Shown here: piece after piece, positions 20,765 through 28,939 of the stretch
Layout: each line of letters opens with the position of its first letter
Position numbering within the stretch: position 1 is the stretch's first letter
Assembly: GCF_001412655.1 (NCBI RefSeq)
Contig: NZ_CP012996.1
Location: 2,232,001 to 2,296,000, forward strand
Source: Pedobacter sp. PACM 27299
GTDB taxonomy: Bacteria > Bacteroidota > Bacteroidia > Sphingobacteriales > Sphingobacteriaceae
Length of the DNA: 64,000 nucleotides
Direction: 5' to 3'
The notes under the pieces: model-generated
What the model was told of the DNA's origin: nothing
Seen by the model: only the letters and a program-made list of their open reading frames with translations
Databases searched by the model: none
Translations under genes and position numbers: made by a program

Positions 20765-20772
20765 TATATTTG
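20765..20772 (+). promoter_or_regulatory. -7 promoter element of tRNA-Leu
   Basis: TATATTTG matches TAnnTTTG 21 nt before the tRNA 5' end and is followed by GCGAC, resembling other stable-RNA promoters in this window (for example TATATTTGCGCG at 25.26 kb). Confidence 0.6.
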
Positions 20773-20779
20773 CGACCCG

Positions 20780-22375
20780 CTAAGGAAATAAATGCCCGGA
20801 TGGCGGAATTGGTAGACGCGCTGGTCTCAAACACCTGTGGGAAACCGTGCCGGTTCGACTCCGGCTCCGGGTACATACCGGACTGATGTCCGAAGAATCA
20901 AAGGGTTGCTCGTAAAGAAGCAACCCTTTTTTATTGATTCTCTGGAGGTTATGCCGGAAGTTCGGGTCGATGAAAGCGGTTCTAAGTAGACCCCCAGCCC
21001 ATACCAGATTATCTTTGAACACCCCCCTCACAATCGCATGTTTTTGAAAGATGTTACATTTTTCATAGATCTCAAAAATATTGGTAAGCGCGGGCAGAAC
21101 CCGATCAATCAGACTGTCTATTTCTATTTTTTGTTTGGGATTTCCATTGAGGCTCATTTCCAATGTTGCTTTTTCTTCTTGATATTTTTTAAACCAGGTC
21201 TGATAAGTTGAATTTTCGATGTGATTATTCATGAATTTCTCTTCCAACTCTAGAATTTTGACATTAATTGCGCTGATCGCATTGAGTTTTTCTTTTAATG
21301 TTTCCTGTTTTTGTTTTAGCGGCTCAGCTAATAATGCTTTTGAAGCGAGCCTAAGAAATTCTACTTGCTGCGGTTCAAAGCAAATGTCTTTAAGGACTTC
21401 GTCAAATTGTTCATGCAATAATTTACCTGGTACATTCACGCTGGTATGGATATGGCATCTATAATATAGATAGTATTGCCTTCTCCCTTTTGACCATCCA
21501 GCAGTCATACTTTGTCCACACCAGCATTTTAAAACTCCTCTTAAGGGGAATTCTTCGTCGGGACGTACTTTCTCCGGACGTTTGTTGTTGAGCATTTTGT
21601 TTGCTGTCCAGTATTCAGCTTCTGTGATTATTGGTTTATGAATGCCCTTGACATATTTTTCAGGTAAATCTTTAAGGGCAGGAACTTTAATTAATCCAGC
21701 ATACAGGCAGTTGTTCAATATATCATGAATGGCGCTGTTTCCTTTGTTGGAGAATCCCATAGCCCTAACTGTTTTGTAGATGATGTAAGGAGCAATGCCA
21801 AGCAGGTAATCATTAAATATTCTTTCTACAATAATGGCTTGGTTTTGATCGATCTGGATATGATTCTTTTTTGAGCCATCATTAATGTTTTTATAGCCAT
21901 AAGGCGCGCGTCCAAGATAGCGTCCGTTTTCTTTAGCATTTCTTATCCCTTGCCTGGTTCTGTTGCGGATGGTGAAAAGTTCTTTATTGGCAATCATGTA
22001 ATCAAAAGCTCTTTTCATGAATACATCTGGATCAGATGTATCCAGATCCACCCGTTCATTTGTAGATAGCACTTTAACCCCATGAGTGCTTTCCAGATCT
22101 GCAATTTTCATTAAAGCTTCAGGTAGATTACGGCTGAAACGGTCATGATCCAATACAATGAGGTATTGGCATTCCCCTTTAAACTTCTTTAGGAAGTCCT
22201 CTAAGGCGCGATAATCTGGCCGGTCGAAGGTATAGCTGTCTTGTCCGTTATCTTTAAATAGCGCAATTATATTTAAGTTATTCCTTCGGCAATACTCTCG
22301 CACCGTCGATTCCTGGTATTCTAAAGATTTTGACTGGTCTTTGGTGCTTAATCTCAGGTATCCAATAGCGTTCAT
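20780..22375 (-). CDS. Large serine recombinase (site-specific integrase)
   Basis: The N-terminal resolvase domain (about residues 1-150) has the catalytic serine in GYLRLSTKDQS (S10) and LDHDRFSRN. A recombinase domain (about 155-290) includes APYGYKN. A zinc-ribbon-like region follows (LKCWCGQSM, YRCHIH), then a coiled coil (about 345-405). This is the architecture of large serine integrases. The frame continues through the antisense of the tRNA terminator and tRNA-Leu, so its last ~35 residues are encoded by tRNA sequence, which is typical of integrases inserted against a tRNA. The upstream partner gene overlaps by 4 nt (ATGA). Confidence 0.88.
   Translation of the reverse strand: MNAIGYLRLSTKDQSKSLEYQESTVREYCRRNNLNIIALFKDNGQDSYTFDRPDYRALEDFLKKFKGECQYLIVLDHDRFSRNLPEALMKIADLESTHGVKVLSTNERVDLDTSDPDVFMKRAFDYMIANKELFTIRNRTRQGIRNAKENGRYLGRAPYGYKNINDGSKKNHIQIDQNQAIIVERIFNDYLLGIAPYIIYKTVRAMGFSNKGNSAIHDILNNCLYAGLIKVPALKDLPEKYVKGIHKPIITEAEYWTANKMLNNKRPEKVRPDEEFPLRGVLKCWCGQSMTAGWSKGRRQYYLYYRCHIHTSVNVPGKLLHEQFDEVLKDICFEPQQVEFLRLASKALLAEPLKQKQETLKEKLNAISAINVKILELEEKFMNNHIENSTYQTWFKKYQEEKATLEMSLNGNPKQKIEIDSLIDRVLPALTNIFEIYEKCNIFQKHAIVRGVFKDNLVWAGGLLRTAFIDPNFRHNLQRINKKGLLLYEQPFDSSDISPVCTRSRSRTGTVSHRCLRPARLPIPPSGHLFP
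20794..20873 (+). tRNA. tRNA-Leu (anticodon CAA)
   Basis: An 80-nt cloverleaf can be drawn. The acceptor GCCCGGA pairs with TCCGGGT (first pair G-T), the D arm is GCG/CGC, the anticodon loop CTCAAAC carries CAA, a long class II variable arm follows, and the T arm is GCCGG-TTCGACT-CCGGC. The discriminator is A and CCA is not encoded. The anticodon stem CTGGT/ACCTG has a T-T mismatch at 28-42. The 3' portion acts as the probable integration target of the adjacent island. Confidence 0.93.
20852..20865 (+). repeat. tRNA-Leu T-arm copy of the 14-bp direct repeat (candidate attL core)
   Basis: GGTTCGACTCCGGC within tRNA-Leu recurs exactly at 44069-44082, and both copies are followed within 10 nt by GGTACA or GGGTACA. 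A tRNA 3' end duplicated at the far side of a recombinase-bearing island is the classical attL/attR pattern. Confidence 0.55.
20901..20933 (+). terminator. Intrinsic terminator downstream of tRNA-Leu
   Basis: AAGGGTTGCT (20901-20910) pairs with AGCAACCCTT, followed by T6. The hairpin also lies inside the antisense end of the recombinase reading frame. Confidence 0.8.
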
Positions 22376-22677
22376 GCTTCCTCCTTTAATATGATTTGAA
22401 TTATAATTTGTGCGAACAAGGTCAATAAGACCTGCTCGCTTTGACTAAACTTATGTTCGCTTTTTTCCAGTACTTTTTGAACTGGCAAGGGCAAAAAATC
22501 AAGTATGTACCCTTCGTCTGGTATCAAGATTATTTCTGGTTTGATGATTTTTGGATTTTCCTTTATTGCTGCCATAAAAACTGTTTTCAGCAATTTGAGT
22601 TTAATCTCAGTTTCTTTGTCCCATATGGGAGAATTACATTTCGTTAACAGAATTTTCTGCGATTTACCTTGGTTCAT
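22372..22677 (-). CDS. Small protein coupled to the serine recombinase, unknown
   Basis: This 101-residue protein has a 4-nt ATGA overlap with the recombinase start, so the two are translationally coupled. It is Lys/Ile/Leu-rich, without a signal peptide or recognisable motif. The C-terminal half (residues 60-101) looks amphipathic helical. An accessory role in recombination, such as a directionality or expression-control protein, is inferred only from coupling. Confidence 0.6.
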   Translation of the reverse strand: MNQGKSQKILLTKCNSPIWDKETEIKLKLLKTVFMAAIKENPKIIKPEIILIPDEGYILDFLPLPVQKVLEKSEHKFSQSEQVLLTLFAQIIIQIILKEEA

Positions 22678-22789
22678 TTTCAGAACTTTAACTCTTTTCG
22701 TAGTCCAATTTTCTTAAAAAAAATTGGAGCAAGCGGAAGTTGGGCAGTGCCTCACTTTTCCCTCCTGGCGCTATCGCTAAGGGGGTATG

Positions 22790-22880
22790 GGATATACTCC
22801 GGATATATCCTGCTAGCCTTTGGCTAGTTTAAGCGCACAAAAGAGTATATCCATGGATATATCCACAGCCAAAATTTGGC
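22790..22880. promoter_or_regulatory. Cluster of palindromic 10-bp sites upstream of the recombinase operon
   Basis: GGATATACTC (22790) and its exact reverse complement GAGTATATCC (22843) each sit beside the palindrome GGATATATCC (22801 and 22855). Between them is the hairpin CTAGCC-TTT-GGCTAG (22813-22827), and a near-palindrome GCCAAAATTTGGC follows at 22868. Four related half-site pairs ahead of an integrase operon suggest an operator or recombination-accessory site. The function is inferred. Confidence 0.5.
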
Positions 22881-23004
22881 AATGATTTAGTTTAATTATG
22901 TTTTAATTTCTTCAACAGCATAGCTCTACGAAAATCATTGATGTCCCTGAAATATTATACTATAAATAATTCCTCTCCTTAATAGATTGGAATTACAGCA
23001 GCCC

Positions 23005-23072
23005 GTTGTATAATCGATGACAATTTTAGTGAGCATCATTTGATCTCACCCTACGGCTGTACAAGCAGCCTC
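23005..23072 (-). ncRNA. Candidate guide RNA unit 2 of the dCas12f-like system
   Basis: Read on the minus strand, a 48-nt scaffold (23072 down to 23025) forms hairpin GGCTG-CTTGTA-CAGCC and hairpin GTGAG...CTCAC with an inner ATCA/TGAT pairing, ending CTCACTAAA. It matches unit 1 in the first hairpin and the CTCACTAAA end, with paired changes in the second stem. Sequence then diverges completely: the next 20 nt, ATTGTCATCGATTATACAAC, would be the guide if the TnpB/Cas12f order of scaffold then guide applies. The exact transcript ends are unknown. Confidence 0.55.
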
Positions 23073-23159
23073 TTATATTTTTAAATTCATTTAAGATAGT
23101 ATTTGTCAAGATCTTAAGTGAAGCCCAACATTGTCTATGTACTCAAAGAATTCCTACTC

Positions 23160-23228
23160 TTGTGGTTTCCTCCTGAACATTTAGTGAGTACAGATTTTGT
23201 CTCACTCTATGGCTGTACAAGCAGCCTC
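23160..23228 (-). ncRNA. Candidate guide RNA unit 1 of the dCas12f-like system
   Basis: This unit begins 10 nt after the dCas12f-like stop codon on the same strand. The 49-nt scaffold (23228 down to 23180) has the hairpin GGCTG-CTTGTA-CAGCC and a second hairpin GTGAG-ACA...TGT-A-CTCAC, ending CTCACTAAA. The following unique 20 nt, TGTTCAGGAGGAAACCACAA, is the putative guide. Units 1 and 2 start exactly 156 nt apart. Placement directly 3' of the effector gene matches how TnpB-family guide RNAs are encoded. Confidence 0.6.
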
Positions 23229-23237
23229 AAAAATTAT

Positions 23238-24335
23238 TTATTCCACTATTAATTGTATGCCTGCTTTTTCAGCTTTATAATTTATTTTGTCTTTCAGACT
23301 GTAATAACTCCAGTTCTGCAACAGAAAAGGGTCTTGTTTTGCGATTTCTTCCTTTTGTTCCTGATTGACCAGAATTAAAGTAGCGGCCTCATGTTTTACG
23401 CAAAGGTCTATTAGCATACGACTGTATAGGTGTAATTTATACTCTACATACCTTTTCTCCTGATGTTGATAGTCTTCTAAACTTTTTAGCTTTCTTTTTT
23501 TGCCATGACCACCTCTGTTAAAAGTAACCGCTTTTTTTACCCTATAGATGGCAGCCTGTATGGCTAATCTACGGTGCAAGAATTCTTCTTTATTACCAAT
23601 GGCGTATTGGTTATTACCAATTTTAACATTAACTGGATGTTCAATGGAAAGAGCGGCTTCTGCAATTACAGCGGTATCCAAAACATGTTGCTCTTTTTCA
23701 ATTTCGATGACTGCTAATAAAAATATTTTACTCTTATCCAACTGGATATTGCTGGTAAGGAGTTTCATCGTCCCATTCTTGATTCTGTTCAGAATAACCT
23801 TTTTATCTGATTTATCTTTCCCTAGATAGGTTCGGAATGGAATTTTAAAGAGTTTAAAACAGAAGTTTCTGTGGTCAGGTGTATGGTCTATTTTTGTAAT
23901 TGCTTCACCAGCAAAGGGCAGTGGAATGTCCTTTTTGTAATTTCTCAGAGATTTTTCACCTTTCCAATAGGCGACTTTCTCTTTATTAAAGTTTGCCAGC
24001 AATGTACTATTTAAGTTGCTAAGGATATTTGTTGGAATATGACCTTTAAAATGATTAGAGAGGAGTCGGTAGGTGGTGTTTATTCGGGAAGACTTGAGGA
24101 TACCATTCGGTTCTTTTTTTTCGTCAGCAATTTTAAGTTTGATTTCATCTGTTAAGTAGAAGAAGTCTTTGACTTGTTCTTGTACAAAATGATGGGTCAT
24201 AATCATGTTGGCAGAACGAAAACAGATCCATTGCCAATGGTATAGTTTTTCTTTAATTTCCTTGACAAAATGAGGGTCATCAGAATCGATCAGTAGCTGG
24301 ATCTTGCGGGTGATAATTATTTTATTATTTTCCAT
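23238..24335 (-). CDS. Nuclease-dead, truncated Cas12f/TnpB-like RNA-guided protein
   Basis: This 365-residue protein has the C-terminal layout of Cas12f/TnpB. The bridge-like region FNRGGHGKKRKLKSLEDYQ (272-290) is followed by a helical HxxSRxxxD-like stretch (YKLHLYSRMLIDLC, 299-312) and then NWSYYSLKDKINYKAEKAGI (341-360), the segment that precedes RuvC-III in TnpB/Cas12f. It ends at residue 365, so the zinc finger and RuvC-III Asp are absent. By eye the RuvC-I Asp position reads LSIEHP (E232) and the RuvC-II Glu position reads LVNQEQ, so cleavage is unlikely. Its start lies 4 nt after the sigma-like gene, indicating an operon. The inferred role is RNA-guided DNA binding that recruits the sigma partner. 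Confidence 0.75.
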   Translation of the reverse strand: MENNKIIITRKIQLLIDSDDPHFVKEIKEKLYHWQWICFRSANMIMTHHFVQEQVKDFFYLTDEIKLKIADEKKEPNGILKSSRINTTYRLLSNHFKGHIPTNILSNLNSTLLANFNKEKVAYWKGEKSLRNYKKDIPLPFAGEAITKIDHTPDHRNFCFKLFKIPFRTYLGKDKSDKKVILNRIKNGTMKLLTSNIQLDKSKIFLLAVIEIEKEQHVLDTAVIAEAALSIEHPVNVKIGNNQYAIGNKEEFLHRRLAIQAAIYRVKKAVTFNRGGHGKKRKLKSLEDYQHQEKRYVEYKLHLYSRMLIDLCVKHEAATLILVNQEQKEEIAKQDPFLLQNWSYYSLKDKINYKAEKAGIQLIVE

Positions 24336-24339
24336 GGCA

Positions 24340-24786
24340 TTACATTTTTACCTTTTTTATCTTGGTATAAGCCTGTACAAAAACCTTTTGAATATGATTT
24401 TGACTTAGGTTTAATGTTCTGGCAATTTCTTCAAAGCTGTATTGAAGCTCATAGCGCATATGTAGAATTGTAGATTGCTCTTCGCATAGATCGCCTTCGA
24501 ATTTGACCTTATTGGTTTTTCCGACAGTATTGAGCTTCTGGCTATTCTTTAAAATAGATTTTAAAGATTCCAGTGTTTTTTCAACTGTTTTTGCTACCTG
24601 ATAATCTGTTATGCCGCCAACATGCCATGCGATGCGTTCATAGCTAAATGAATACTTTATGCAGAGTCGTATGAATAACTGCTGGTTTTCGGGAAGGTTG
24701 GGAAGCACACTTTCCACCGGCCTCCATTGCTCGCTCATATTGGTATAGTGTATCAGTTTCTTCTTCTTCCCAAGGGTTGTATCCAC
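24340..24786 (-). CDS. Sigma region 4-like part of a split or frameshifted ECF sigma factor
   Basis: The 148-residue frame contains two helix-turn-helix segments of sigma-region-4 type: residues 29-80 (LPNLPENQQLFIRL, SYERIAWHVGG) and 100-146 (CEEQSTILHMRYELQYSFEE, IARTLNLSQNHIQKVF). It overlaps the upstream sigma-2-like frame by about 140 nt and lies one base ahead (+1). Joining the frames near 24715 gives a continuous ECF protein of about 260 residues. An internal ATG at 24738 (MSEQWRP) is an alternative independent start. It could be a genuine split sigma, a programmed shift, a mutation or a sequencing error. Confidence 0.65.
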   Translation of the reverse strand: MDTTLGKKKKLIHYTNMSEQWRPVESVLPNLPENQQLFIRLCIKYSFSYERIAWHVGGITDYQVAKTVEKTLESLKSILKNSQKLNTVGKTNKVKFEGDLCEEQSTILHMRYELQYSFEEIARTLNLSQNHIQKVFVQAYTKIKKVKM

Positions 24787-25126
24787 CTATATATTCCTGG
24801 TAATTTTCTAAATCATCCAGTTTTAGCATGTTTCGCTGGAATTTAGTGTTGGAAGTTTTGTAATAAGCTTTGCAACCGTCTGAAGTCCATTTTTTAACAA
24901 ATGTTTCAATATGAGCTGGGTCACTAATACTCTTTCTGATTAGCCAGAGTCTGAGAAAAGCGTCATTAACAATACAATCAGCATTGGTGTCGTCCTTTAT
25001 ATATCTTAAGCCTTTAAAATATAATGATGGATACAGGAGTTTGTAGAAAAAGTCAAGTCCCTTTTCATTTCCTTCTTGAAATTTGTTGAAATAATACTGC
25101 TGGTCAGTTAGCTTTTTACTTTTCAT
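24644..25126 (-). CDS. Sigma region 2-like part of a split or frameshifted ECF sigma factor
   Basis: Residues 12-95 of this 160-residue frame resemble ECF sigma region 2: YFNKFQEGNEKGLDFFYKLL, then LYFKGLRYIKDDTNADCIVN with the DAFLRLW helix that contacts core RNA polymerase and the -10 region. After about residue 137 the frame runs out of phase with the region-4 part and ends in unrelated sequence (PAVIHTTLHKVFI). It is first in the operon with the dCas12f-like gene, downstream of a promoter and a terminator-like hairpin. No anti-sigma gene is adjacent, in contrast to the FecI/FecR pair at 29.4 kb. Confidence 0.7.
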   Translation of the reverse strand: MKSKKLTDQQYYFNKFQEGNEKGLDFFYKLLYPSLYFKGLRYIKDDTNADCIVNDAFLRLWLIRKSISDPAHIETFVKKWTSDGCKAYYKTSNTKFQRNMLKLDDLENYQEYIGGYNPWEEEETDTLYQYERAMEAGGKCASQPSRKPAVIHTTLHKVFI

Positions 25127-25163
25127 GCTCGTAGTTTATACGAGTCTTATTGGAACTTGTGCT

Positions 25164-25254
25164 CAAAAAATAAGGGAGAGACACTATCTCCAATCAGTTC
25201 CCGGGGTCTAACTCCCATAAACGTGATTTTCAACGATAGTGCCCACTCCCTTAT
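25164..25254 (-). ncRNA. Structured small RNA or leader attenuator upstream of the sigma/dCas12f operon
   Basis: On the minus strand TAAGGGAG (25253-25246) pairs with CTCCCTTA and, inside it, CACTATC pairs with GATAGTG, enclosing a ~45-nt loop with a possible GGG/CCC pairing. The structure ends in a run of six T. A perfect -7 box lies just 5-6 nt upstream, so transcription would start at the base of the stem. It is either a ~90-nt stable RNA or an attenuator 38 nt before the sigma-2 start. It matches no RNA family I know. Confidence 0.6.
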
Positions 25255-25258
25255 CGCG

Positions 25259-25266
25259 CAAATATA
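25259..25266 (-). promoter_or_regulatory. -7 promoter element for the structured RNA/sigma operon
   Basis: TATATTTG on the minus strand, followed by GCGCG, matches TAnnTTTG and places the start of transcription at the first base pairs of the hairpin. No -33 TTTG is apparent. Confidence 0.55.
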
Positions 25267-25474
25267 GCACAATATGGTATGTGGGCATAATTTATCGCTC
25301 TCCGTTTATTTTAAATGTTAGACTTGGGAACGTGAGACTCTTTATTATACCTTAAAACGTTATTAACTTTTTCAACCTTAAATCATAAATCAAATATAAC
25401 AAAGAAAACTTGTATATGCAATTCATTCTTATTTAAGTTCATAATTGCATTATAATTATTATTCTTTTTGATTG

Positions 25475-25996
25475 ATGTCGAAAAGAGCGAAAATTTATGA
25501 AGCTGGTGGAGTGAAACAGATTATAGGGGCGAAATTGAAAGATAGACGCCTATTACTGGAGTATTCACTAAGCGATATTTCTGATATGACAGACTTTTCA
25601 AAATCAACCGTCATTAATTTAGAGAAAGGGATCGCTACTAATTTGGATTATTACATTGGCTACGCTAAGGCGGTCGACTTGAAACTCCCAAAGTTATTCG
25701 ACATTCCAATTCTATATAAACCAAAGTATGAGCTTTCTGAAGATAAAAAGAATAGAATATTTTTATCAAAAAAAATGCGGCAATTATATGCTAAGCATGA
25801 TTTCTTTAGAAATAATGTGACTGTGGATGATATTATATTGCATTTTGAAAAGACCAGTGAATTAAACAGATCCAGGAAATTGAGCATAGATGTTTCTAGG
25901 ATATTACTGAACTGGGTAGAAGATGGAGTTTTATATATTGCTGAAAAGCGGGGGCGTATCAATGTTTATTGTAAAGCTGAAAAGCTGCCAGGTTGA
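25475..25996 (+). CDS. XRE-family HTH transcriptional regulator
   Basis: This 173-residue protein has an N-terminal HTH of XRE type (about residues 18-68: LKDRRLLLEYSLSDISDMTD, FSKSTVINLEKG). The C-terminal half is of unknown fold. The ATG at 25475 is preferred over the TTG at 25472. It is divergent from the sigma/dCas12f operon across a 348-nt region, so it may control that operon or the island. This is inferred from position. Confidence 0.7.
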   Translation: MSKRAKIYEAGGVKQIIGAKLKDRRLLLEYSLSDISDMTDFSKSTVINLEKGIATNLDYYIGYAKAVDLKLPKLFDIPILYKPKYELSEDKKNRIFLSKKMRQLYAKHDFFRNNVTVDDIILHFEKTSELNRSRKLSIDVSRILLNWVEDGVLYIAEKRGRINVYCKAEKLPG

Positions 25997-26137: not shown

Positions 26138-27332
26138 GACCTCACCCTGTTCAAAATATTTCAAGTGAAAGAAGCAACTTTTAATAAAATTGTAATTGAC
26201 AATATCGATCGGTAAGGCTTTTTCCCTCAGATTGTAATTCAAGACTTTCCTATCCGTGGGCATAAAGTGTTTTTTCATATCCGCAGACGCCGATGGCTCA
26301 ATACAGAAACGTCCAAGGTGATTTAACGGAATTGGACTTTAGTAGAAAAGGGAACGCGAATGACTGGAGATTTCGCGGCTTTTTTAAAAGAAATCAATCG
26401 ATACAGCGCCGAGTAGCGTTGATGCCATCAGGTCATTCTATGGTGTAAGAGTTAAGAATCTACTTCGTCAATATCGTGATTACCTCAGTGACTTTAAAAG
26501 CTGGGATCAAAAATCGCATGCAAAAAAGTGACTGTTATATCCGGAAAATCTTGGTGAACAGCTTTCTATAGACGAGACCAGTCTATCCCATGGTGAACTT
26601 TACAACATCCTTACCAACAAAGCCGCAAAACCGTTATTTCCGTGTTGAAAAGAATACAGGAAAGGGCAAGAAAAAAGGTCACTGAAGTCAACTTGGATAT
26701 GGCTGGTAACATGGAATTGATCTGCAAACGTTGTTTTCCGCAAGCAACCAGAGTGACCGATCGGTTTCATGTACAGAAACTGGCTACCGAGGCACTACAG
26801 GAAATGCGGATCAAATACAGATGGGAAGCTATGGATCAGGAAAATGAGGCTATAGAAAGATCAAAAAAGACAGGTAGGCCATTTCAAGCGGAAGTACTCT
26901 ATAATGGAGATACCATCAAGCAGTTGCTTGCCCGTAGGAGATATGTATTGTATAAAAAGCCTTCTGCCTGGATAGAAAGTCAAAAGGATCGTGCAGAGCT
27001 CTTATTCGAGAGGTTTCCCGATCTTAAAAACAGCCTATGGCCTCAGTTTTGGGCTTAGTCAAATCTTTGAAAATACAACTGACAAAATCTTTGCATTGGC
27101 CAGACTGGCCAAATGGCATGAAAAAGTAAGGCAAACAGGATTTAAAGTCTTCAATACAGTTGCAAGATCTATACAGAACCATTATCAGACTATATTGAAT
27201 TACTTTGACAACAGATCTAATAATGCTGCCGCAGAATCTTTTAATGCAAAAATAGAGGCTTTCAGAAATCTGTTTAGAGGTGTGAAAAACATAGAATTCT
27301 TCCTGTACAGACTAACTCAATTGTATGCTTAA
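26138..27332 (+). pseudogene. Degenerate ISAon1-type transposase
   Basis: The plus strand encodes broken pieces of an ISAon1/ISL3-like transposase. The N-terminal part reads DFPIRGHKVFFHIRRRRWLN and GTRMTGDFAAFLKEINRYS, interrupted by in-frame stops. The catalytic part contains LSIDETSLSHGELYNILTN, then, after a missing segment, VTDRFHVQKLATEALQEMRI, and after another frameshift FNAKIEAFRNLFRGVKN. At least three stops, one deletion and two frameshifts make it inactive. Boundaries are approximate; terminal repeats were not identified. Confidence 0.8.
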
Positions 27333-27750: not shown

Positions 27751-28939
27751 TAAAAACAGGAACCAGCATAAGAGGTGTACTTCATTATAATGAAAACAAA
27801 GTTGCGGATGGGGAAGTGAAGTTAATTCTGGCAAGTGGCTTTGCTGGTGAAATTGAGAATATGACTTATTCAAAATAAGGTACCTCGGTTTCAGCTTTTA
27901 ACGGAGTTAAAACCAAGTGTTGAAACGAATGCTTTGCACATATCCTGAAATTTTGATGCGTCTGAAAATATCAGTAGCGCTAAGATGCAGGATATTGCAA
28001 TAGCTTATATGGAACGTATTGGATTAGGTGATCAACCTTTTTTAGTATACCGACATAATGATGCAGGTCACCAACACTTGCACATAGCAACGGTTAGTAT
28101 ATAAAGGGATGGTGAAGCCCTTAAGACCCATAATATCGGCAGAGATTTATCTGAACCCGCTAGAAAGTCTATAGAAAAGGATTTTAATATAGTTGTTGCG
28201 GAACGCAAAGTGTACAAGCAAGAGCCAAGTATTAAACCTGCTGATTTGAAACAAGTAAAATATGGGAGGTTATCAACCAAACGCCAAATTAGTAACGTTT
28301 TAGCGGGTGTTATAAATGAGTATAAATTCACCTCACTCGCAGAGTTTAATGCAGTGCTTAAGCAGTTTAATGTTATTGCTGATCGTGGTAAAGAAGATTC
28401 GGAAATGTTCCAAAACAAGGGATTGATTTATTCTTTAGTTGGTGTTAATGGCTAGAAAGTTGGAATTCCGATTAAATCAAGTTCATTTTACATTAAGCCT
28501 ACTTTACGCAATCTGGAGTCTAAATTCGAGAAGAACAAAGAAAAACGCAATCCATTTAAACAGAATCTAATTGAACGGATTAATAAGGTATTCACAAAGT
28601 ATGAGTGTATCAAAAAGGAAACCTTAATTGGCTGAACTTAAAAAGGACGGAATAAACCTAGTCTTACATCAAAATGTTCACGGCCGTATTTATGGTACTA
28701 CTTTCATTGACCATCAAAATAAAGCCGTTTTTAATGGAAGTGATTTAGGGAAGCTTTACACTGCTAATGCCATGATTGAACGGATTAGCTCGGAAGATAG
28801 AATTAGATCATTCTTAAAGCCTGTAATCCAACAAAAAATATATCTAAAAGCACATTCGGATAAACTTCTGGATAATTACTTACAGAAAACAGCGTCAACA
28901 AATTTCCTCAGGGATTCGCTTGATAAATTTCCAACCTGA
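27738..28939 (+). pseudogene. Degenerate relaxase/mobilization nuclease
   Basis: Pieces of a Bacteroidota MobB-type relaxase are recognisable in order: TGTSIRGVLHYNENKVADGE and LILASGFAGEIENM, then MQDIAIAYMERIG and the His-rich DAGHQHLHIATV. Next are KPADLKQVKYGRL, FTSLAEFNAVLKQFN and, last, VHGRIYGTTFIDHQNKAVFN. Several stops and frameshifts separate them. The island was once mobilizable and is now defective for its own mobilization. Confidence 0.85.

Follow-up and report, generated by a model that had tools for sequence, protein, structure and literature searches.

A nuclease-dead Cas12f and sigma factor locus of Pedobacter with predicted guide RNAs matching a putative switching strand in SusC/SusD leaders

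The locus described here lies in a stretch of 64,000 nucleotides (the window) of the one-contig, 6.15-Mb genome of Pedobacter sp. PACM 27299 (G000; NCBI RefSeq assembly GCF_001412655.1, contig NZ_CP012996.1, positions 2,232,001 to 2,296,000), and positions are counted from the first letter of the window unless a genome is named. Read along the reverse strand, it comprises a structured leader, a sigma factor gene in two pieces, the gene of a nuclease-dead Cas12f-type protein (dCas12f) and two predicted guide RNAs (gRNAs). It was compared with the 16 closest relative cassettes, 15 from Pedobacter and one from a Mucilaginibacter metagenome-assembled genome; counts over 17 loci or cassettes refer to the window together with these relatives.

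The dead Cas12f protein and its sigma gene

The dCas12f gene (23238..24335 (−)) encodes 365 residues. Its top match in the PDB was 9n9c, named “Nuclease-deactivated Cas12f” (E 5.8e-134, residues 7–364), with nuclease Cas12f chains ranking behind at E 6.6e-39 and weaker. NCBIfam returned TnpB (E 3e-9) and Cas12f2 (E 4.3e-5), both under the curated cut-offs, and Foldseek, applied to a moderately confident AlphaFold2 model (pLDDT 66), placed 9n9m and 9n9c first, both being structures of dCas12f with gRNA, with or without DNA. The preliminary description of this DNA, made from the sequence alone, had proposed a TnpB/Cas12f-type protein deprived of its RuvC-I and RuvC-II acidic residues and of its RuvC-III/zinc-finger end, and all of this was borne out. 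By alignment, the position of the RuvC-I aspartate is occupied by A228; the RuvC-II glutamate is replaced by N324, assigned by eye and invariant in all 14 aligned sequences (L005, L007 and L008 were left out of this alignment, as were L037, L039 and L040, whose dCas12f genes contain stops). The protein ends where the nucleases continue into RuvC-III and the zinc ribbon, and 13 aligned relatives end at the same residue.

Compared with the CRISPR-Cas12f nucleases AsCas12f, Un1Cas12f1 and Al3Cas12f, the window protein has the same fold and related sequence over residues about 83–363, but the intact RuvC site and zinc ribbon by which such a nuclease is recognised are both missing, as is RuvC-III. 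Its RNAs are single fused gRNAs rather than a CRISPR array, and no cas1 or cas2 gene was seen, although no search was aimed at them. On sequence grounds, then, the window protein is a dead Cas12f and a Pedobacter member of the known dCas12f-sigmaE system (PDB 9n9c, 9n9m, 9n9o and 9n9q). The suggestion that it might represent a distinct branch did not survive: because the solved relative is also 365 residues long and matches end to end, a distinct, truncated branch is rejected, and the sigma factor RpoE of the solved system aligns with that of Pedobacter gandavensis. Pedobacter sp. V48 (G002) has four dCas12f copies, of which three are interrupted by stops or frame breaks.

The sigma gene is present as an N-terminal piece carrying region 2 (24644..25126 (−)), the last part of which is out of frame, and a C-terminal piece carrying region 4 (24340..24786 (−)). 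For each piece the sole PDB match was RpoE of entry 9n9q (chain 9n9q_C; E 1.2e-15 and 1.6e-21, respectively), an entry that also contains the dCas12f sequence and is a solved dCas12f-sigmaE complex. In Pfam, region 4 scored over its cut-off and region 2 weakly, under it (E 0.035); as RpoE of 9n9q covers both, the gene has the regions 2 and 4 by which an ECF sigma factor is recognised. As had been described, the dCas12f start lies 4 nt past the sigma stop codon, and a sigma frame of 251–338 codons ends 1–4 nt ahead of the dCas12f start in 14 of the 16 relatives; the exceptions are L036, with sigma sequence further upstream, and L037, which is decayed. Both genes are open in 12 of the 16.

RpoE of 9n9q (261 residues) aligns over residues 6–251 with the intact sigma factor of P. 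gandavensis (L025), relative to which the window gene has suffered a net deletion of 17 nt at 24741..24742 (−). The window thus holds a family member with one broken part: its sigma gene is adjacent and homologous, but split, as had already been remarked. With 14 of the 16 relatives keeping an open sigma frame, the split looks like a lesion of the window copy, which is unlikely to activate transcription. A programmed frameshift is ruled out, since 17 nt are missing. The ratios of non-synonymous to synonymous substitution (dN/dS) against L025, 0.08 and 0.06 for the sigma halves and 0.05 for dCas12f, are low, which fits a recent lesion. With its sigma factor broken, the window strain has likely lost activation; its dCas12f may repress where it binds, or have no effect.

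Two-protein sigma factors exist elsewhere, and both pieces here are open frames that keep their regions, so the two might be made separately and cooperate as one sigma factor. We regard this as very unlikely, given that the arrangement is found in a single copy, that the N-terminal piece bears an out-of-frame tail and that the deletion looks like an ordinary lesion. Far more weight, at slightly under even odds, goes to the window copy being a decaying island remnant of no activity, whose dCas12f and gRNAs look intact since the lesion is recent. The deletion, the lack of a second sigma match in the genome, the low dN/dS, the broken ISL3 transposase nearby and the decay of other copies, with stops in dCas12f of L037, L039 and L040, are all in keeping with this; on the other side, dCas12f and both scaffolds are open or intact, guide 1 keeps a perfect genomic target, and the remnant would concern the window strain alone, not the mechanism of the family.

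Predicted guide RNAs and a leader family at their targets

Directly 3′ of dCas12f the preliminary description had placed structured repeats. These correspond to two guide scaffolds and are predicted to be guide RNAs; the guides, their targets and the leader family had escaped it. The scaffold of gRNA 1 (23159..23231 (−)) forms two hairpins and that of gRNA 2 (23005..23075 (−)) ends in the tag ATACAAC, and both are supported by covariation and by the scaffold model, which gave 2 matches in the window against 0.00 expected. The architecture is that of a GGCUGCUUGUACAGCC hairpin and a GUGAG...CUCAC hairpin followed, either directly or some 30 nt later, by a CAAY tag and a 17-nt guide. We take the scaffold hairpin and CAAC tag to resemble known Cas12f tracr/crRNA. 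Among 20 aligned scaffolds, the compact ones of 49 scaffold-like hits, 4 of 13 pairs showed compensatory change. A search of 37 genomes with the scaffold model returned 28 copies, all of them within the 6 of these genomes that hold dCas12f and none in the other 31, and 26 of the 28 sit 3′ of dCas12f, within about 1.6 kb.

The number of scaffolds varies between relatives, with 10 scaffold-like hits in 2.5 kb in P. cryoconitis (L026) and 8 in Pedobacter sp. PAMC26386 (L027). In these two loci, some scaffolds head a series of several tag-plus-guide units with no further scaffold between them, reminiscent of a degenerate crRNA array. One scaffold (G003:C8:190564-190636) lies about 16 kb from dCas12f and another (G007:C26:33206-33271) 5′ of it, and by eye the Mucilaginibacter locus (L038) has a scaffold upstream of sigma too.

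Guide 1 (23113..23129 (−)) matches 17/17 a site in its own genome, G000:C1:2148295-2148311(-), about 350 nt upstream of the start of a 983-residue SusC-type receptor, which is followed by a SusD-type protein. With a 20-nt pattern and up to 3 mismatches, this site and the guide itself were the only places returned from the genome, and the reversed control returned 0. For guide 2 (22988..23004 (−)), a full 17/17 match lies in a SusC/SusD leader from a different Pedobacter genome (G025). Allowing up to 3 mismatches, a 16-nt pattern from guide 2 gave 89 places in G000 and its reversed form 13; most of the places examined besides the guide itself (19 of 88, L046–L064) fall inside long open reading frames (ORFs), which makes a coding bias likely, and we have left this excess unused as evidence.

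Both target places and the region upstream of the window sigma gene have a common architecture, consisting of GAGTCT, a TAnnTTTG box starting 72–75 nt further on, the target and a closing GACTCRT. Upstream of sigma, this leader (25140..25340 (−); GAGTCT ... GACTCGT) was identified by pattern, fold and the leader model, with the box at 25259..25266 (−) just ahead of a strand that we call B (25235..25252 (−)), the position matched by guides in other leaders, and with strand C at 25172..25188 (−). We take the box to be a promoter −7-like element. Searched as a pattern, independently of the guides and hence free of circularity, GAGTCT...GACTCRT returned 21 hits, spread over 12 of 37 genomes, against 2 for the reversed control, and the folding energy of two leaders was well under that of shuffled sequences (z −5.6 and −6.8).

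RNAalifold, run on 23 of 25 leaders (L043 and L105 were left out of the alignment, and L118 had been omitted from a list of 26), predicted 29 pairs, 16 of them with compensatory change. The closing helix P1 is paired in 100% of cells, with no compensatory change, while P2 (93.7% paired cells, 6/9 pairs compensatory) and a helix between strands A and B (98.8%, 5/7) both covary. An alternative helix between B and C comprises 18 pairs, 87.9% paired and 10/18 compensatory, against 38–48% for slid controls, and shares the B columns 116–120 with A:B. In 60 of 69 elements gathered by a model lacking B:C, the best helix of the B–C region beat all 20 shuffles; in some elements it is displaced towards the 5′ side of the guide target. 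Covariation thus supports a three-strand switch in which A:B and B:C would be mutually exclusive, with B as the pivot. Three strands, two exclusive helices and covariation are also what riboswitches and attenuators offer, but the leader stands apart in its lack of an Rfam match and in its strand B, which guides match and which is not constant from copy to copy. In an Rfam 15 search of 8 loci bearing leaders or gRNAs (E≤1), only tRNAs reached the gathering score.

The leader model, applied to 59 genomes (36 Pedobacter including the present one, 23 other), found 78 leaders in 25 genomes, with up to 15 per genome; these are 25 of the 36 Pedobacter and none of the 23 outside the genus. An antisense match in L102 was kept among the 69 elements of the shuffle test above and excluded from most other counts, which rest on 68 leaders. 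Within the 7 kb at most that were examined behind each of these, a SusC-type gene was found for 23, a HEPN gene for 17 (in 2 cases together with TssD/Hcp) and dCas12f for 9; the remaining 19 matched none of the five queries. Upstream of sigma, a leader was detected in 7 of the 17 cassettes. The HEPN protein has 298 residues, and in L128 and L129 (G013 and G019) the TssD/Hcp gene comes after it. Two further leaders of G000, for neither of which a full guide match was found, lie on C1 at 1947407-1947605 (L049), before a 169-residue protein without Pfam match and beside an ORF that is IstB-like by eye, and at 3043393-3043581 (L133), before a SusC/SusD operon with, by eye, two short sigma-like ORFs in between.

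The TAnnTTTG box is exact in 50 of the 68 leaders. A second such box was seen 30–110 nt ahead of the leader in 26 of the 68, compared with 4 of 68 for a control region farther upstream, and is likely the promoter of a long leader RNA. Strand C as a general intrinsic terminator was considered and dropped, a T5 run being present in the last 45 nt of just 13 of the 68. Divergent ORFs of at least 60 codons accompany all 26 leaders with sufficient sequence (those with less than 900 nt upstream were left out of the 68), and 16 of these 26 match a Pfam helix-turn-helix (HTH) family at E≤0.01. That leaders are present in 20 genomes devoid of dCas12f means that they have a function independent of it; most likely a separate regulator controls them, perhaps the divergent HTH protein, and this the cassette would override.

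Guide matches to strand B and their interpretation

Matches between the sequences 3′ of dCas12f and these leaders are concentrated in one strand. When all 16-mers from 2.5 kb 3′ of dCas12f in the 17 loci were compared with both strands of the 68 leaders (18 of which, lacking an exact box, were placed by a near match or a default position), 425 matches of at least 15/16 were obtained, counting overlapping 16-mers and related loci and corresponding to 26 distinct places in 10 of the 17 loci. Of the 425, 400 fall in strand B, on the coding strand, whereas the reversed control gave 11 (1 in B) and the complement control 11. At 16/16 there were 75 matches, 71 of them in B, against 0 in either control, and a looser first test at 14/16 or better, covering 16 of the 17 loci (without L038), had given 475 matches against 110 in the reversed control. 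The sense of the guide is always that of the gene, and of 15 target sites, 13 are preceded by G and 2 by A (one guide at two loci), with a background G frequency of 0.30. Within single genomes, leader matches of at least 13/17 were present in 3 of 6 tested (G000, G002 and G006), and with the exception of window guide 2 they all lead to SusC/SusD leaders.

These results are consistent with the layout of nuclease-dead Cas12f-sigmaE systems, which the preliminary description had recognised and which is now seconded by full-length matches to the solved complex, gRNA scaffolds and guide–target matches. In the 2025 work of Hoffmann and colleagues on dCas12f-sigmaE, the gRNA complex is said to bind DNA at a 5′-G motif, where sigmaE recruits RNA polymerase and the distance from the R-loop sets the start site. 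The window family agrees with the published system in its end-to-end dead Cas12f of 365 residues, a sigma factor matching RpoE of 9n9q, the order of sigma then dCas12f and gRNA, and a G 5′ of the target. It differs in the broken sigma of the window and in the two to ten tandem scaffolds of some relatives, and possibly also in its targets, which here lie in the putative switching strand of a structured leader family.

As a whole, the data are best explained, with a probability of about two in three, by guides of the intact relatives switching on SusC/SusD operons through dCas12f-sigma, an activity likely lost in the window strain. The gRNAs would be made and bound by dCas12f; the complex, together with sigma, would land on strand-B DNA of the leader at its 5′-G motif and form an R-loop; sigma would bring RNA polymerase, and transcription would begin a set distance downstream. 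Strand B serves as guide target and as switch pivot alike; an mRNA begun beyond the R-loop, between B and C, would therefore keep C but be devoid of A and B, and the switch could not form in it. The SusC/SusD uptake operon would thereby be turned on. Whether mobile cassettes in this way hijack a genus-wide RNA switch, the guide being a copy of the variable strand B, SusC/SusD mRNA no longer being switched off, and key and lock diversifying together across Pedobacter, is a more tentative matter, possible but somewhat less probable than not. If true, it would amount to an RNA-guided override of a riboregulator.

Two other modes of action can be set against the same matches. In the first, dCas12f would be a sigma-free, RNA-guided repressor, blocking initiation at the TAnnTTTG box from strand B. 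The guides do start about 10–26 nt past that box, which is exact in 50 of 68 leaders, the window sigma is broken, and TldR proteins are nuclease-dead TnpB relatives that repress, as described in PMC13418256. Like TldR, the window family has a TnpB/Cas12f-type protein without catalytic residues, a guide RNA encoded 3′ and a predicted role in gene regulation, but it is partnered with a sigma factor, so that activation is predicted here, unlike in TldR, and its best matches are Cas12f, not TnpB. With a sigma frame adjoining dCas12f in 14 of 16 relatives, a relative solved in complex with RpoE, and a box whose activity as a promoter is itself putative, we consider repression unlikely. The second, in which strand-B copies would act on RNA, pairing with strand A or C and flipping the switch in trans, is the least probable of all the readings weighed here. 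Such pairing would be open to the guides, whose sequence is that of strand B, and both helices covary; yet a G 5′ of the target, found in 13 of 15 sites, is a feature of DNA targeting, and Cas12f relatives bind DNA.

Several observations weigh against activation of SusC/SusD operons by the cassettes. The sigma gene of the window copy is broken, no second match of its C-terminal piece was found in G000 at E≤0.01, and guide 2 reaches just 14/17 in leaders of its own genome. In 7 of the 17 loci no 16-mer 3′ of dCas12f attains 15/16 in strand B, and the redundancy of the 425 matches reduces their weight. Four leader loci (L043, L122, L123 and L126) were first found via guide matches or a guide-derived YGGG pattern, which makes their contribution partly circular. 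The B:C helix of the window sigma leader ties with its best shuffle (17.0 vs 17.0), thus failing to beat all 20. Furthermore, 20 of the 25 genomes with leaders lack dCas12f, and 3 of the 8 genomes with dCas12f are without a detected leader.

Given that the sigma-dCas12f operon too bears a leader, autoregulation by its own guides was considered and rejected. At 8 loci with a leader in the same genome, no guide best matched the sigma leader, save for one 12/17 match after a weak tag (L025) that is probably due to chance. Across genomes, a single 16/16 match was found, from a guide of L027 to the sigma leader of L010 in G002.

The dCas12f-sigmaE machinery itself has been described before. New, within a narrow literature search in which no paper on either was found, are the leader family and the overlap of the guide target with the switch strand. 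Natural dCas12f-sigmaE guides thereby gain concrete predicted targets in their own genomes, namely SusC/SusD uptake operons. The purpose of RNA-guided transcription in Bacteroidota becomes testable as well, being likely a mobile, reprogrammable override of active nutrient-uptake systems.

Surroundings of the cassette

The island setting was described correctly in its main elements. A tRNA-Leu gene (20794-20874 (+)) is overlapped by the gene of a large serine recombinase (20780..22375 (−); Pfam), likely the island integrase, and a divergent XRE-like HTH gene lies at 25472..25996 (+), its HTH_3 match (E 8e-4) falling under the cut-off. In a search for an att repeat of the tRNA, just a 14-nt match was found elsewhere in the window. 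The decayed mobilization genes that had been suspected were not recovered: of the two ORFs tested there, 28210-28455 and 28628-28939, neither matched Pfam at E≤0.01. A broken mobile gene that did turn up is an ISL3 transposase in two overlapping pieces (26642-27332 (+)).

Positions 20765-25146 of the window are 85% identical in DNA to L025 of P. gandavensis (NZ_WNXC01000010.1) over 4.4 kb. The similarity spans tRNA-Leu, recombinase, gRNAs, dCas12f and sigma before breaking off at the 3′ boundary of the leader (25140-25340). The divergent HTH gene of the window resembles those of L027 and L029 instead, as if HTH gene and leader had been swapped as a module.

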